A stretch of 64,000 nt of DNA from Sporosarcina jeotgali (GTDB lineage Bacteria; Bacillota; Bacilli; Bacillales_A; Planococcaceae): positions 2,955,001 to 3,019,000 of the forward strand of contig NZ_CP116341.1 of the NCBI RefSeq assembly GCF_033304595.1, given 5' to 3'. The position numbers were made by a program, and so were the translations under genes. Below, in pieces: positions 13,085-40,113 of the stretch (position 1 is its first letter; every line of letters starts with the position of its first letter). The notes below the pieces were generated by a model that saw nothing but the letters and a program-made list of their open reading frames with translations, was not told where the DNA came from and ran no database searches.

Positions 13085-13280
13085 GATTGCCCACTGGGGG
13101 AGTCTTTGTAAAAGACTGAGACGCGTATAGATATGCGGACCCTTGGAACCTGATCTGGCTCATACCAGCGGAGGGAAGTGGATCGCAAATGGACACGTCT
13201 TTTTTCGGGCAGATCCCTGAAAACTTCCTATAACGCGAGCCGCTCCTTCGACTGATGAGTCGATTGGGGCGGCTTTTTTT
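13085..13280 (+). promoter_or_regulatory. TPP riboswitch with terminator
   Basis: The THI-box landmarks are all present: CTGGGGGAGT near 13094, CTGAGA at 13136 region, ACCCTTGGAACCTGATCTGG near 13139-13158, and GCGGAGGGAAGTGGA. The aptamer spans about 13090-13185. The expression platform is a strong hairpin GAGCCGCTCC...GGGGCGGC followed by seven T (about 13237-13280), so thiamine pyrophosphate should terminate transcription before tenA. This accounts for most of the gene-free stretch 12996-13310. Confidence 0.95.
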
Positions 13281-33845: not shown

Positions 33846-34628
33846 TTACTGACGTACAGTGGTTCTTCCCGCCTCAATTAGAGGTTGTATCGTTTCAAGA
33901 TTCCCTTCATGAAAAGCTGAGACAATTGCACTTCCTACAATCACTCCGTCTGTAATTTGACTGAATTCACGGACTTGTTCAGGCGTTGAAATTCCAAAAC
34001 CAGCCAGTACCGGCACATTGGATACTTGCTTCAAGTCTTCTAAATGATTCATCAAATTCGAATCGAATCCGTTCCTGACACCTGTTATGCCATTGACCGT
34101 CACTGCGTAAATGAACCCTTCAGCAGCCTGCGCAATTTTTTCAATCCGCTCGTTTGAACTTGTTAACGATATCAAAGGGACGAGCGCAATATCTTTGCCA
34201 ATGAGCCCATCGGATAGCAAACCGCGTTCCTCATGCGGCAGGTCCGGGATGATCAAGCCTTTAACGCCTGCTTGTTCACACACCTCTGCAAATCCAGAAA
34301 TTCCATAAGCTAAAACCGGATTCAAATAAGTCATTACGATTAAAGGGACTTCGTGCGGCCGGGCCTGCAATTCGCTCATCACTTTACGCAATGTAACACC
34401 TATTTCAAGCGCCCGGCTCCCAGCCTCCTGGATCACTTCGCCATCAGCAACAGGGTCAGAAAAAGGAATGCCAATCTCAATCGCATCCGCCCCTGCCCTT
34501 GCGAGGAAGGAAATGCGTTTATGCAGGATATCCAGCCCGCCATCCCCCGCCATCATGTACGGGATAAATGCCGGCTGATTTTTTTCATTCCGTTCACGGA
34601 TGACCGCTGTCAATGTGAATTCGTTCAT
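33846..34628 (-). CDS. trpA: Tryptophan synthase alpha subunit
   Basis: 260 residues, TIM barrel. Splits indole-3-glycerol phosphate into indole and glyceraldehyde-3-phosphate. The catalytic Glu and Asp are in [16 protein letters not shown], further [10 protein letters not shown] and GFGIS phosphate site. Last gene of trpEDCFBA; start overlaps the trpB stop by four bases and uses GGAGG inside trpB. Confidence 0.97.
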
Positions 34629-35821
34629 TGAACGCCGCCTCCTAACGCATCGCGCACCGTCTGCACGTCTTTATCTCCCCTGCCCGAAAGACAAACGACG
34701 AGAATTTCTTCAGGACTCATCTCTTTCGCCAAACCGAAGGCAAAGTGAATCGCATGTGCACTTTCAAGCGCTGGGATGATTCCCTCTTTCTGTGCAAGCA
34801 GCTGTACTCCTTCGAGCGCTTCAGCATCCGTTGCAGATGTATAGTGAACCCTTCCTATATCATGGAGATGGCAGTGTTCTGGACCGACGGCAGGGTAATC
34901 GAGACCTGCAGAAATTGAATGCGCTTCTTGAATAAACCCATCATCATCCTGCAGCACGTACATATATGCCCCGTGCAAGACGCCCTCTTTTGCTTCAGCA
35001 ATCGCAGCCGCGTGCTGCCCCGTCGAAATACCCCCACCTGCTGCTTCTACTCCATATAGTGCAACGTCAGCCTCTTCTATAAATGGGTGGAACATCCCGA
35101 TTGCATTACTGCCGCCGCCAATACACGCAACAACCGCGTCAGGCAGACGACCCTCTTTATCCAGTATCTGACGCTTCGTCTCTTGTCCGATCACTTGCTG
35201 AAAGTCCCGGACAATTTTAGGGAATGGATGCGGTCCAAGTGCAGATCCGAGAATATAATGCGTATCTTCCACATGTGCAACCCAGTACCGCAGCGCCTCA
35301 TTCACTGCATCTTTCAACGTTCCCGCACCTTTATCGACAGACTCTACCCGTGTACCAAGCAGTTCCATCCGGAATACGTTCAGCTCCTGACGGCGAATGT
35401 CTTCTTTCCCCATAAACACCACACATTCCAACCCAAGCAGCGCGCACGCAGTAGCTGTCGCGACACCATGCTGCCCTGCTCCTGTTTCCGCGACAATTTT
35501 CTGCTTACCCATACGTTTTGCAAGTAACGCCTGGCCGAGCGCGTTGTTGATTTTATGGGCTCCTGTATGGTTCAAGTCTTCACGTTTCAAGTAGATTTTT
35601 GCTCCGCCTGCAGCTTTTGTAAGCCTCTCTGCATAGTAAAGCGGATTCTCTCTGCCAACGAAATCTTTTAAGTATCCATTCAACTCTTCTATGAATGCAG
35701 CGTCCTCCATTGCTTCCCCGTGTGCTTCCTCCAGTTCCGATAACGCACCCATCAATGTCTCGGGGACGTACTGCCCGCCAAATCTTCCATACCTTCCTTT
35801 ACCCTCTACTGCCTGAATCAT
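34625..35821 (-). CDS. trpB: Tryptophan synthase beta subunit
   Basis: 398 residues, PLP enzyme that condenses indole and serine. The Schiff-base Lys is in HTGAHKINN, the PLP phosphate loop is [10 protein letters not shown], and the N-terminal [13 protein letters not shown] is typical TrpB1. ATG 35821 is chosen: GAGGAG is eight bases upstream, whereas ATG 35827 (overlapping the trpF stop) is only two bases from it. Confidence 0.97.
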
Positions 35822-35823
35822 GC

Positions 35824-36441
35824 TCATCTCTCCTCACTTTTCAGCTTAACCGTTTTGATGAATTCTCGGATCAGCTGCTCGTCTTTTCTCTTCTCAATCT
35901 CAACACCACTCGAAACGTCAACCATTACCGGCTTTACTTGATTAATCGCTTCTCCTACATTTCCTGCATTCAACCCGCCGGCTAGTATGAAAGGGCGCTC
36001 TTTAAATCCTGATTGCGTTAAGATGTCCCAGTTGAACGTTTTTCCGCTCCCCCCTTTAAATTCAACGCCAGGTGCGTCAAACAACGGAGTCACATTATAA
36101 CTAGCCGCTCTATGGACATCTTCCGAACCTTTGATTGAAAAAGCCTTAAAGGCAGGCAAACCGACTTTTTCGATGAATTCCGGGGTTTCATCTCCATGGT
36201 ATTGCACAATGTCTAGTGGAACTGCTTCATAGATCTCTTGAATATCAGTCGGAACCGCATTGACAAACACACCTACTTTCAGAACGGATGAAGGGACATG
36301 AATCGCCAGCCTTGCGGCCTGGTCTATAGATACTTGTCTGCGCGAAGGGGCGAAAACGAAACCGATGGCATCGGCTCCTGCATCCACGGCCGCTCGCACA
36401 TGACGTGCTTCCATCAGACCGCATATCTTCACTTTTGTCAT
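35824..36441 (-). CDS. trpF: Phosphoribosylanthranilate isomerase
   Basis: 205 residues, TIM barrel. [10 protein letters not shown] carries the catalytic Cys, DIVQYHGDE and the C-terminal LAGGLNAGN and DVSSGVE phosphate-binding motifs follow, with the catalytic Asp in PLFDAPG. Separate from trpC, as in Bacillus. GAGGTG before ATG 36441; overlaps the stop of trpC. Confidence 0.96.
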
Positions 36442-37229
36442 TGTTCATTCACCTCAATGTCAACTTGAATTGAATGAATTGCCTGATTGGGTGAGGTACT
36501 TCTCATGAGGGTTTCGCCTACTAGCACGGCCCTTGCACCTGCTGCAGATACACGCTGTGCATCAGCTGTCCCGCCAATTCCACTTTCACTTATAAGGACC
36601 CGATCGGATTCAAATGGAAACAGCGAAGCGATTTCCTCAGTCTTCGCCAGGTCAACTTGAAACGTCCGTAAATCTCTATTATTTACTCCAATCAGCTGTG
36701 CGCCTGCTTCTATAGCTCGGTTTAACTCGTCAGCATCATGAACTTCGACCAGTACTTCCAATCCAAGTGAGGCAGCATAGACATGCAGCGCTTTCAACTC
36801 CACATCGGGCAGTGCTGCAACAATCAGCAAGATAACGGATGCCCCTGCAACTAGCGCTCGGTCGACTTGTATGGGGTGAATGATAAAATCTTTACAAAGC
36901 ACCGGGATGTGAACCGCTTCCGCCACCATTTTCAAATCTTCAAATGATCCTTTAAAAAACGGCGTATCCGTCAAAACGGAAACACATGCAGCGCCTGCAT
37001 GTTCGTATATCCGGGCTTGTTGGACAGGGTTTACGGTTTCTTGAATAACTCCTTTCGATGGCGATGCCCGTTTTATTTCCGCAATCACTTGGAGCTGATT
37101 CGAATTTTTAATGGTATCCAACAATGAAGGCCGGGCTGCGATTGTTGGAGTCGGTTGTACAGCCGTTTCTGCTAACAATCGGGAAACTTCCTGTTCCTTC
37201 TTGCGCAAAATATCATCGAGAATAGTCAT
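36438..37229 (-). CDS. trpC: Indole-3-glycerol phosphate synthase
   Basis: 263 residues. IAEIKRASPSKG holds the catalytic Lys and the Glu residues, VLCKDFIIHP the second Lys, GVNNRDLRTF and LISESGIGG complete the site. Closes the ring of CdRP to indole-3-glycerol phosphate. Ribosome site is a weak GGTGG; translation is probably coupled to trpD, whose stop it overlaps. Confidence 0.96.
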   Translation of the reverse strand: MTILDDILRKKEQEVSRLLAETAVQPTPTIAARPSLLDTIKNSNQLQVIAEIKRASPSKGVIQETVNPVQQARIYEHAGAACVSVLTDTPFFKGSFEDLKMVAEAVHIPVLCKDFIIHPIQVDRALVAGASVILLIVAALPDVELKALHVYAASLGLEVLVEVHDADELNRAIEAGAQLIGVNNRDLRTFQVDLAKTEEIASLFPFESDRVLISESGIGGTADAQRVSAAGARAVLVGETLMRSTSPNQAIHSIQVDIEVNEQ

Positions 37230-38257
37230 AACACCACCACCCTATCCGTGCACTGTTGACAAAAGGCAGCCGTTTCTTCTAATTTATGTTTGGCTCTCCC
37301 TGTAAGAATGCTGTCTTCTGCAAGCCGAACTCCCTCTTGAACGGTTCTAACGATGCCTTCTGTAAATAATCCAATGCCTGCGTTGAGGGCAACCGTATCG
37401 AACTGCGGCCCGCGCTGCCCCTTCATAACAGAACGAATGATGGCAGCATTACATGCTGCATCGCCACCACGGATTGCTTCCAGACCAGCTGGCTGCAGCC
37501 CGACATCTCCGGCTGTTAACGTAAACGGAATCAGGTCACCGCGATCTGCAAGGACGAGTGTATTTCTGCCTGCAAGTGTTGCTTCGTCAGGACCTCCTGC
37601 CCCCGCAACAACTACTGCCCGCTTCCTGCCAAGCATCGTTAGAACAGAAGCATACTCCATAACGAAATCCTTACGATTAATGCCCGTGTATTGTGCGTGC
37701 AGCGGAATGGGGTTTGTCAACGGACCGACTAAGTTAAAGATTGTCGGACTGCCAATTTGTTTGCGTATCGCTCCAATACGTTTCATCTTCGGATGCACGT
37801 TCGGCGCGAACAGAAATGCAATGCCACACTGCTCCATCATGGCAGTTGTTTCATTCGCTGTCAGATCATTTCGTATTCCCAGCTCTTCGAGTACATCATG
37901 GCTTCCAGCAGCGCTTGAAATTTTACGGTTGCCGTGTTTTGCAACACGCACTCCGGATGCTGCCATAACGAACGCGGATGCTGTGCTGATATTGAAACTG
38001 TTGGAACCGTCCCCTCCTGTTCCACAGTTGTCAATATACGATACTTCAGGAAACTCGGGGCGAATTGCATTGGCAGATATGACAGAAGCCAATGCCGCCA
38101 CCTCCTCTGCAGTTTCTCCTTTTTGTGCAAGGGATTTAAGAAAAACGGCAATCTCCTTCTCATCTGTCTTATCATTAAACAGCAGACCTGCTGCACCTTC
38201 CATCTCCTGAAACGTTAAATTCTGATTTGCTTGAACGGCTTGTATATAGCTCTTCAT
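37226..38257 (-). CDS. trpD: Anthranilate phosphoribosyltransferase
   Basis: 343 residues. Phosphoribosylates anthranilate. DNCGTGGDGSNSFN (PRPP-binding), AKHGNRKISS and the GAGGPDEAT segment are the family signature. Not fused to a glutamine amidotransferase; trpG is absent from the cluster and is presumably the shared amphibolic pabA-type gene elsewhere. Ribosome site GAGGAGAG before ATG 38257. Confidence 0.96.
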   Translation of the reverse strand: MKSYIQAVQANQNLTFQEMEGAAGLLFNDKTDEKEIAVFLKSLAQKGETAEEVAALASVISANAIRPEFPEVSYIDNCGTGGDGSNSFNISTASAFVMAASGVRVAKHGNRKISSAAGSHDVLEELGIRNDLTANETTAMMEQCGIAFLFAPNVHPKMKRIGAIRKQIGSPTIFNLVGPLTNPIPLHAQYTGINRKDFVMEYASVLTMLGRKRAVVVAGAGGPDEATLAGRNTLVLADRGDLIPFTLTAGDVGLQPAGLEAIRGGDAACNAAIIRSVMKGQRGPQFDTVALNAGIGLFTEGIVRTVQEGVRLAEDSILTGRAKHKLEETAAFCQQCTDRVVVL

Positions 38258-38310
38258 AACTGATCTCTCCTCTTCTCTACTGTTCTCGTCTCTTTTTCAT
38301 CTTACCTATT

Positions 38311-39687
38311 CTAGTGTGTTTCCTCCATGAGGCTAGTTAGTGATTTGGCTTTATTAACGGTCTCCAAGAATTCCGAATGCGGATTGGACGCTTCCACAAT
38401 TCCGGCGCCTGACTGGACACTTACAACGCCATCTTTCACGACCATTGTGCGGATTGTCAAAGCAAAATCGATATTGCCGTTCAAGCCGATATATCCGATT
38501 GCTCCGCCGTAGATTCCTCTCGGCTCTGGCTCTAGTTCATCAATCATTGCCATCGCCACAGGCTTTGGACTGCCAGTGACTGTTCCCGCTGGTAAACTCG
38601 TTTTAAGAGCATCTAACGCGTGCAATCCTGGCGCAAGATTACCTGCTACTTCTGATACAAGATGCATCACATGTTCATATCTGACCGTTTCCTGATACGC
38701 AGTTACTTCAACACTATCCGGATCACAGAACTGCTTCATTTCACTTTTACTCAATTCAACAAGCATGTCATGTTCCGATAACTCTTTTGGATCTGCCCGC
38801 AGTGATTGTTCCAGCCTCTCATCTTCTGCCAGAGTGATCCCCCGTCTGCGCGTTCCTGCAATCGGATTCGTTTGCACTCGCCCCTCTTGGACACGTACTA
38901 GACTTTCAGGAGATGCACCAATAACAAGGTGATCATCAAATTCCATATAATACATATAAGGTGATGGGTTCCGTTCACGTAATCGTCGATACAGCTGGAA
39001 AGGATCTCCTTCAATATTCGCTGTTAATTTACGGGAAAGGACGACTTGCTCTGCTTTTCCTTGCCGTATGTCATGAATTACTTGCTGTACGTTTTCTTCA
39101 AAGGCTTGTTGCGATACCTCACTGCGATATTCGGAAACCATTACATCTGTTTCAACATCGGCAAGACCTGTTAACAGTGTTTCAGCGAGTTCATCTAAAT
39201 CAGGTGATTGATTAGTAGGATGAATTTCTGTATGCAGCAATGTTACTTCCTCTATCTGGTGGTCATATATAACGATTGTGTCGTAAATATTAAAGGCTGC
39301 ATTCGGGAAATCCGGGTTTGGTGCGCTGACTCCTTTTCTTCCTGAGTCATACCCGAAATAGCCGACAGCCCCTCCAGTAAACGGGAATTCACTTTCGTCT
39401 GTCACCCTCGGCATAAGCCGCTTCAGCAGTGTAAACAACTCTCCTTCATGAACAAACGAAGTGCCGTCCATATAATTGGTTTCTTCCACACCTTCCGGAT
39501 GTCCTTTGTACGATTTCAAAGGATTCGCGCCTATGAACGAATAGCGGCCATTTTTCGCATGGCCTGACGAACTTTCCAACAAAAATTTATGGGTACTTTG
39601 CAATCTTTGAAAAAGTAAAGCAGGTGTTAACGTTTCTCCATTGAACCGTTTAGCGGTTACTCGTAATCCCATTTTCTCGATTGTCAT
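38311..39687 (-). CDS. trpE: Anthranilate synthase component I
   Basis: 458 residues. Makes anthranilate from chorismate with ammonia delivered by TrpG. The tryptophan feedback site LLES is in HKFLLESSSGHAK, and the chorismate motifs PSPYMYYMEF, IAGTRRRG, LPAGTVTGSPK, and GIYGGAIGY are present. The longest frame starts at 39702, but GGGAGAG lies inside it, seven bases before ATG 39687. First gene after the tryptophan leader. Confidence 0.96.
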   Translation of the reverse strand: MTIEKMGLRVTAKRFNGETLTPALLFQRLQSTHKFLLESSSGHAKNGRYSFIGANPLKSYKGHPEGVEETNYMDGTSFVHEGELFTLLKRLMPRVTDESEFPFTGGAVGYFGYDSGRKGVSAPNPDFPNAAFNIYDTIVIYDHQIEEVTLLHTEIHPTNQSPDLDELAETLLTGLADVETDVMVSEYRSEVSQQAFEENVQQVIHDIRQGKAEQVVLSRKLTANIEGDPFQLYRRLRERNPSPYMYYMEFDDHLVIGASPESLVRVQEGRVQTNPIAGTRRRGITLAEDERLEQSLRADPKELSEHDMLVELSKSEMKQFCDPDSVEVTAYQETVRYEHVMHLVSEVAGNLAPGLHALDALKTSLPAGTVTGSPKPVAMAMIDELEPEPRGIYGGAIGYIGLNGNIDFALTIRTMVVKDGVVSVQSGAGIVEASNPHSEFLETVNKAKSLTSLMEETH

Positions 39688-39726
39688 TCGATTCTCTCCC
39701 ATCTCGTATAAGTTCCTGAAAACGAC

Positions 39727-39985
39727 AAAAAGCCCCCTGCATCCAGACAGGAATGTCCGGTTGCAGAGGACGGAAAAATCCGCGTTGCCACCTCAATTGG
39801 GATAGAATGATATCCCCACTTCGCGTGCGGTCAAACCGCACTTCCCGTAACGCGGGAATGGCGTCCTTAAGAAACCTGTTACAGGTTTCCATTAGGCTCT
39901 CATAAGTCCATTCACACCGCGAGACAGGCCGGTTCTCACCATCCACCGGCTCTCTGGATCTGTCTAACGCGATGCTACTCTTCTT
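39727..39985 (-). promoter_or_regulatory. tRNA-Trp T-box riboswitch of the trp operon
   Basis: On the minus strand all T-box landmarks appear: GAAGAGTAG at the Stem I base, AGAGAG, GGTGGATGGTGAGAACC loop motifs, a specifier loop GTGAATGGAC whose TGG (39908-39910) is the tryptophan codon, and the T-box sequence AGGTGGCAACGCGG (39780-39793). The competing terminator is CCTCTGCA-ACCGGACA with TGTCTGG-ATGCAGGGG followed by TTTTT (about 39727-39770). Uncharged tRNA-Trp should stabilise the antiterminator and allow trpE transcription. Confidence 0.95.
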
Positions 39986-39998
39986 ATTTCAAAGATTT

Positions 39999-40033
39999 CT
40001 CAGCTATGCTCTTCTCGTCTCATCTCTGCTCTC
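39999..40033 (-). promoter_or_regulatory. Candidate TRAP-binding site: seven (G/U)AG triplets spaced by two
   Basis: The trp leader RNA reads GAG, GAG, GAG, GAG, GAG, UAG, GAG with spacers CA, AU, AC, AA, CA, CU; every spacer is exactly two bases. In plus-strand terms CTC or CTA at 39999, 40004, 40009, 40014, 40019, 40024 and 40029-40033 (CTC at 40029 or 40031, depending on register; the in-phase one is 40029). Further triplets lie at 40050-40052 and 40061-40063, and at 39975-39980. TRAP, the 11-mer tryptophan sensor of bacilli, binds such (G/U)AG repeats with 2-3 base spacing. Located between promoter and T-box. Confidence 0.7.
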
Positions 40034-40040
40034 CGCGGGC

Positions 40041-40058
40041 GGCGTCGCTCTCGACACC
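40041..40058 (-). promoter_or_regulatory. 5' stem-loop of the trp leader
   Basis: RNA stem GGUGUCG/CGACGCC (7 bp, one G-U) closed by AGAG, about 20 bases from the predicted start of transcription and just upstream of the (G/U)AG repeats. The Bacillus subtilis trp leader has a 5' stem-loop in the same place that contacts TRAP. Confidence 0.65.
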
Positions 40059-40084
40059 AGCTACCCATCTGAAAGTTGTATCCA

Positions 40085-40113
40085 ATCTTACAACCTATCG
40101 TTCCTCGTGTCAA
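40085..40113 (-). promoter_or_regulatory. trp operon promoter
   Basis: On the minus strand TTGACA (40108-40113), 17 bases, TAAGAT (40085-40090). Transcription would begin near 40078, about 390 bases before trpE. The gap 39688-40215 is thus filled by this promoter, the TRAP-like element, the T-box and the divergent rluF promoter. Confidence 0.8.

Follow-up and report, generated by a model that had tools for sequence, protein, structure and literature searches.

The leader of the trp operon in Sporosarcina jeotgali very likely has a dual architecture, in which a TRAP-like site and a tRNA-Trp T-box are carried on one RNA upstream of trpE. Control of trp genes by TRAP and control by a T-box are each well studied, and the two are known as alternatives between species or as devices linked in trans by anti-TRAP. 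The leader described here is probably a composite two-input attenuator, a single RNA that would need both low free tryptophan and uncharged tRNA-Trp, with the trans job of anti-TRAP done in cis. The features of the leader and operon are listed below, with positions given in the window (the whole 64,000-nucleotide stretch of DNA that was analysed).

40085-40113, minus strand: sigma-70-type promoter, read from the sequence (TTGACA 40113-40108, 17-nt spacer, TAAGAT 40090-40085)
~40079, minus strand: presumed RNA start
40071-40075, minus strand: 5' strand (CUUUC) of a possible extra helix, P0, pairing with GAGAG at 40033-40029, across the first triplet, in the predicted fold
40037-40066, minus strand: 5' stem-loop, GGGU-[AGCU]-GGUGUCG-AGAG-CGACGCC-GCCC, from pairing and covariation
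39999-40031, minus strand: TRAP-like site of seven (G/U)AG triplets with exact 2-nt spacers, GAGcaGAGatGAGacGAGaaGAGcaTAGctGAG, from pattern counts and conservation
39763-40001, minus strand: tRNA-Trp T-box leader (RF00230; Rfam match of 115.4 bits, E 8e-25)
39908-39910, minus strand: specifier codon UGG (Trp) in Stem I, after a conserved GAA, read from the sequence
39763-39794, minus strand: T-box antiterminator GAGGUGGCAACGCGG...CCGUCCUC, with GAGGUGGCAACGCGG as its core, from the Rfam alignment
39727-39770, minus strand: intrinsic terminator hairpin and U-run upstream of trpE, from the sequence and a predicted fold
38311-39702, minus strand: trpE, identified by eye
38260-38292, minus strand: second TRAP-like array, GAGacGAGaaCAGtaGAGaaGAGgaGAGatCAG, at the trpD ribosome site, with seven in-phase NAG
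37226-38257, minus strand: trpD, identified by eye
36438-37229, minus strand: trpC, identified by eye
35824-36441, minus strand: trpF, identified by eye
34625-35827, minus strand: trpB, identified by eye
33846-34628, minus strand: trpA, identified by eye

The T-box starts where the leader triplets end, and an A+U-rich stretch, AAAUCUUUGAAAUAAG, lies directly 3' of the triplets. The true start of trpE is probably the ATG at 39687, 3' of GGGAGAG. Elsewhere in the window, a TPP riboswitch is found at 13086-13193 on the plus strand (81.7 bits). An earlier note on this DNA had proposed that one leader carries both a TRAP-like site and a tRNA-Trp T-box, and both parts, their order and their conservation are present in the sequence. 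The promoter that it described was found, as was the full T-box with a UGG specifier (39910-39908) and a terminator before trpE, the U-run of which extends to 39727. The 7-bp stem-loop of that note corresponds to the upper stem of an element that also has a 4-bp lower stem and a bulge, and the seven exactly spaced triplets, placed at 39999-40033, hold in number and spacing, with their end set two bases too far (the array reaches to 40031).

The triplet array stands apart from the rest of the genome. A run of seven (G/U)AG triplets occurs once in the window and in none of 100 dinucleotide shuffles, a count that replaces the chance figure of "one in 10^9" given in the earlier note. Runs of four have four overlapping matches in the window, all in the leader (expected 0.01); in the 3.2-Mb genome, the two overlapping matches to a run of six both lie in the leader (reversed pattern, 0), as do all three matches to a run of five (reversed control, 1). 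These run patterns are blind to sites that contain CAG or 3-nt spacers, and the trpD array, for example, was missed by them. Chance or purine bias as the origin of the array is ruled out by the shuffles, the reversed controls and the conservation of phase. Five-run matches in other families were discarded as evidence, the reversed control often being equal (29 versus 29 in G115).

The T-box is a match to the whole RF00230 model (1-219), above the gathering score of 93 bits; its specifier fits the trp pathway, and it has an antiterminator with UGGN and a competing U-run terminator. Its read-through is expected to depend on uncharged tRNA. For comparison, trpE was sought at E 1e-100 and found in 77 of 121 relatives, and 78 trpE regions were taken, 68 of them from the same genus; these 68 and L101-L103 make up a set of 71 leaders. 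The T-box core was recognized by pattern in the 71 leaders, with UGG after GAA in every one (71/71), and in 70 of the 71 a TTGAC precedes the stem-loop by 15-75 nt. Of the 78 regions, 40 were scanned with Rfam and 39 exceeded the curated score, the exception (L102) having the core and specifier. Tandem T-boxes were considered for the long leaders (~530-690 nt from array to trpE) and rejected, one T-box over score being found in each that was scanned. In two leaders, the stretch from the trp T-box to trpE contains Bacillaceae-1 RNAs (RF01690), two in L081 (2019-2180) and one in L084 (924-990), which fall within the extra leader length; the T-box matches in L081 and L084 are also ~100 nt longer than usual.

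The TRAP-like site has seven triplets at a spacing of 2, in agreement with TRAP sites as repeated (G/U)AG triplets with 2-3 nt spacers, and its phase persists in relatives in which the T-box is retained, a comparison for which the earlier note had called: in 39 non-redundant leaders, a set that excludes L103 and a 15-leader clade (L041-L050, L053, L055, L057-L059), 230 triplets are in phase and 15 out of phase. Strict in-phase triplets, counted in 70 of the 71 leaders (L103 could not be anchored), number 3 in 6 leaders, 4 in 13, 5 in 10, 6 in 20, 7 in 20 and 8 in 1. The excluded clade has about three triplets, a 1-nt spacer and then four triplets; such a mid-array 1-nt spacer is atypical of TRAP sites. 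The last repeats of the array, GAGAAGAGCAUAGCUGAG (39999-40016, minus strand), have spacers AA, CA and CT and a UAG that are kept beyond the presumed need of TRAP, and the relatives are alike in this. The triplets could in principle be a purine-rich flank kept for the T-box, or the site of another protein, and the retained spacers of the last three repeats are what such a flank would show. That reading is hardly credible, as the upstream spacers vary across leaders with AG retained, array length changes by 5-nt steps between near relatives (e.g., L039, L036 and L040), in-phase motifs also occur at the ribosome sites of trpD, trpE and trpP and, with no T-box present, in G265, and the array is missing from the five T-box outgroups examined, among the matches listed.

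Upstream of the triplets, the 5' stem-loop consists of a 4-bp lower stem, a 4-nt bulge (AGCT), a 7-bp upper stem and the loop AGAG. Its 11 pairs are 98.1% standard in 48 non-redundant leaders, compared with a shuffled mean of 89.6% and maximum of 91.7% (1000 shuffles); the 48 are drawn from 50 non-redundant leaders, with L069 and L103 left out because of a shifted parse. Compensatory double changes are seen at 5 of 10 stem-loop pairs (RNAalifold), the AG that ends the loop and the AG that starts the bulge are invariant in the 48 leaders, and lower-stem variants such as CGGT/ACCG and TGGC/GCCA are found in other genera. A 5' stem-loop upstream of the triplets is also a part of the B. subtilis-type attenuator, a likeness at the level of position. 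Variants of the P0 helix were read by eye in relatives (GUUC/GAAC, GUAC/GUAC, GGAC/GUCU) and would join the RNA 5' end to the first triplets; the helix is absent from several of the leaders examined. Conserved pairing of the array with the T-box or terminator was found in none of 19 folded leaders. The array was dropped as a candidate for a classical antiterminator strand, and that role is not claimed because the predicted pairing partners vary between leaders.

A gene for the protein that would read the triplets is present. The earlier note had suggested a genome search for mtrB (TRAP) and rtpA (anti-TRAP): the former was found in this genome (E 4e-39), and the latter was not. The mtrB gene comes next after a gene read by eye as GTP cyclohydrolase, the same neighbourhood as in the B. 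subtilis mtr operon, where mtrB follows folE. The TRAP protein aligns with solved TRAPs over residues 5-71 of 73, and the residues that presumably contact tryptophan and GAG appear to be kept. Across the order, the TRAP gene is found in 260 of 261 genomes, and the one without it is a 75% complete genome. TRAP is predicted to bind the leader in a tryptophan-dependent manner. Anti-TRAP exceeded its family cut-off in 0 of 73 members of the same taxonomic family and in 1 of the 121 relatives, from another family; at E 0.001, 19 matches were obtained among the 121 relatives, and these were taken as noise because the anti-TRAP family also matches below cut-off in a control genome. As rtpA was not found, sensing of the tRNA seems to take place in cis alone.

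TRAP-like arrays are also located at ribosome sites. The trpD array of this operon, absent from the earlier note, has five GAG among its seven in-phase NAG and ends 2 nt before the ATG. Arrays of four or more in-phase triplets were found over the ribosome site of trpD at 52 of 69 loci and over that of trpE at 31 of 78, counts for which start codons were assigned by script and are in some cases doubtful; the background was 1 in 1716 windows inside trpE, which represents coding sequence and not other purine-rich ribosome sites. In this species, the trpE ribosome site has no TRAP-like array. In several relatives, an array precedes a gene identified by eye as trpP, and the TrpP family had no match in this genome. 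A trpG/pabA-type glutaminase was not found at E 1e-60, a threshold that may be too strict, in 45 members of genus g1, and none was seen within the trp operon. These arrays extend the likely TRAP regulon to the trpD and trpE ribosome sites. Such arrays fit repression, which argues against a helping role of upstream TRAP, either as an aid to Stem I folding or pausing, or by keeping the purine-rich triplets from mispairing with the T-box. To our knowledge, TRAP is negative at its known targets. A negative effect on the translation of trpG, trpP and ycbK is described in the part of PMC11255114 that was available. In predicted folds, part of the array does base-pair elsewhere in the leader, as the helping role would have it; we regard this role as quite improbable.

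The spread of the unit was followed with a covariance model, R1, that comprises the stem-loop, the array and the beginning of Stem I; its training set consisted of 50 leaders from genera g1, g2, g3 and g5. With weak matches counted, R1 was found in 256 of the 261 genomes searched in the order, in 18 of 19 genera; hits in the four training genera are not independent, and those in the other 14 genera are. Among the 121 relatives, all 72 R1 matches fall in one family and none of the 48 genomes of other families has one, including the 36 of these that have TRAP, although divergent forms may be missed by a model that is strictly filtered and includes the start of Stem I. In 20 loci from ten genera, the T-box exceeded the curated score in 19, and 10 or 11 of the 11 stem-loop pairs formed in all 20, in a scan that picks the best of many positions and in which 9 or 10 of 11 pairs can occur by chance; the unit heads trpE in 12 of these loci and a trpD-first operon in 8. 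A further 20 genomes gave 24 R1 loci, with a T-box in 18 of the 20 scanned; L292-L295 lay outside that scan, and L293 and L294 look like chance matches. The specifier pattern gave UGG in 35 of 40 further loci. Among the other five, L285 and L289 lack a T-box over score, and L259, L260 and L276 misfit the pattern. Some weak R1 matches are incomplete, with an unclear stem-loop in L283, L290 and L291 and only two clear triplets in L284. PreQ1 riboswitches precede the trp leader by ~600-700 bases in L273, L280, L284 and L288 (genera g50, g56 and g57).

Several genomes depart from the common arrangement. In G219 and G223 of genus g53, a full unit precedes trpE (L272; L274). The same two genomes have a second, weaker unit before trpD (L291; L290), with R1 scores of 32-33 bits, triplets and a T-box and an unclear stem-loop. 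G265 (genus g55) has the stem-loop, the triplets and a plain hairpin, with no T-box over score, both at trpE (L285; nine triplets by eye) and at trpB (L289; four in phase). Another genome of this genus, G264, carries the fused form (L262). In genus g6, TRAP is present with no R1 match, and one member has a T-box core without an array before trpE (L105). The 14 named outgroups examined, among the matches listed (at least 80 loci), comprise 5 with a T-box core and no array, 7 with an array and no T-box core and 2 with neither; the two devices were together in none of them, in a comparison that covers leader devices only and not the TRAP gene, and in which T-boxes were assigned by core pattern and not by Rfam. 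The genomes offer an evolutionary series for testing each part, from T-box only (a g6 genome) through fused (most) to TRAP only (G265).

The 5' site might instead be the decaying remnant of an ancestral TRAP-only leader that a later T-box rendered redundant. Arrays shorter than the eleven triplets of B. subtilis, with 3 or 4 strict triplets in 19 of 70 leaders, and the few weak matches that have lost the stem-loop or triplets would suit decay, which nonetheless appears very improbable for a site that R1 matches in nearly every genome of the order, that has compensated stem pairs, and that also persists in species without an array at the trpE ribosome site.

In the favoured composite attenuator, tryptophan-loaded TRAP would bind the stem-loop and triplets as they leave RNA polymerase and lower expression, and the T-box would stop transcription at the terminator unless uncharged tRNA-Trp docks; as TRAP off and T-box on would both be required, the leader would perform a logical AND for expression. 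By covering the trpD ribosome site, and the trpE and trpP sites in many relatives, TRAP would also shut the translation of read-through transcripts, and anti-TRAP would not be needed because the tRNA signal is read in cis. Both sites, with their order, phase and conservation, and the TRAP gene are present at the level of sequence, and anti-TRAP was not found; the binding of TRAP at the leader, its negative sign and its mode of action are read from this pattern. TRAP would most likely either stand in the way of Stem I or of tRNA docking, a few bases from its site, or drive the polymerase off in the A+U-rich stretch. The earlier note had likewise suggested that TRAP might interfere with Stem I folding or with early elongation. 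A more specific proposal, put forward tentatively as a real possibility, is that TRAP bound at the base of Stem I competes with uncharged tRNA-Trp for the nascent T-box, making an order-wide protein-riboswitch AND gate and a cis counterpart of B. subtilis anti-TRAP. Against the composite attenuator count the seven triplets where B. subtilis has eleven, the leaders with only 3 or 4 strict triplets (19 of 70), the 1-nt-spacer clade, the lack of conserved pairing between array and T-box, the over-conserved last spacers, the partial weak R1 matches, and the TRAP of g6 without an R1 match.

The same parts could work as two independent devices in series, with early termination by TRAP through the polymerase or an effect on mRNA stability, the T-box acting alone, and no interference between TRAP and tRNA. 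In the available part of PMC3913778, TRAP is described as ending transcription in vivo without an attenuator if an A+U-rich stretch, found sufficient, follows its site, and as not doing so in a minimal in vitro system; here, AAAUCUUUGAAAUAAG follows directly. The stem-loop and triplets of G265 (L285, L289) exist without a T-box, and the TRAP module may therefore work alone. However, 19 or 20 nt separate the invariant UAG from Stem I in every one of 39 leaders, a spacing tighter than serial order requires, though also explicable by shared ancestry or by the T-box's own 5' flank. The independent action of the two devices is judged somewhat unlikely, and the composite attenuator is retained as the preferred reading. 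If the cis fusion is real in nearly all genomes examined of one order, it represents a rare protein-and-tRNA logic gate, and would be the likely reason that anti-TRAP was not found in the order.

TRAP and the T-box are each known, and their cis fusion is new as far as the literature was searched. No description of a leader with both devices was found in the open-access full-text literature; key reviews lie outside that scope, and an earlier mention is possible. In the parts available, PMC2494555, PMC4342826, PMC11255114, PMC12452182, PMC7583486 and PMC13178558 deal with one device at a time, with anti-TRAP acting in trans, with T-boxes in tandem, or with the combination of a ppGpp riboswitch and a T-box, and a figure legend of PMC2494555 marks species with TRAP beside T-box use.

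The leader resembles that of the B. subtilis trp operon in having a 5' stem-loop and, close to the 5' end of the RNA, (G/U)AG triplets with spacers of 2-3 nt; the gene order trpEDCFBA is also shared. The B. subtilis leader, according to the available part of PMC3913778, has eleven triplets that overlap the antiterminator, an attenuator directly downstream and no T-box. In contrast, the present leader has seven triplets (3 to 8 in 70 leaders) instead of about eleven, and its terminator is carried by the T-box, which lies between the triplets and the terminator in place of an antiterminator over the triplets with an adjacent attenuator. The joining of T-box sensing of uncharged tRNA-Trp to TRAP control recalls the B. 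subtilis rtpA operon; there, as the accessible text of PMC11255114 describes, the T-box belongs to a different operon and works in trans by way of anti-TRAP protein, whereas here it lies in cis, and no rtpA gene was found in this genome. Other Gram-positive trp operons likewise have a UGG T-box and terminator before the trp genes, but a TRAP-like array is missing from all five of the T-box outgroups examined, among the matches listed. In tandem trp T-boxes, the partner is a second T-box, as far as described in the available parts of PMC4342826 and PMC12452182, and not a TRAP-like array as here. The combination of a ppGpp riboswitch and a T-box, a Boolean AND gate (Sherlock 2018, as cited in the available part of PMC7583486), also places two signals on one leader; its second sensor is an RNA aptamer, whereas the second sensor here is a protein site. 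Finally, the trpD array, together with the trpE and trpP arrays of relatives, is like the TRAP sites at the trpG, trpP and ycbK starts of B. subtilis, where triplets lie over the translation start (PMC11255114, in the part available), with the difference that in the present operon the ribosome-site array is added to a leader that already combines a 5' array and a T-box.
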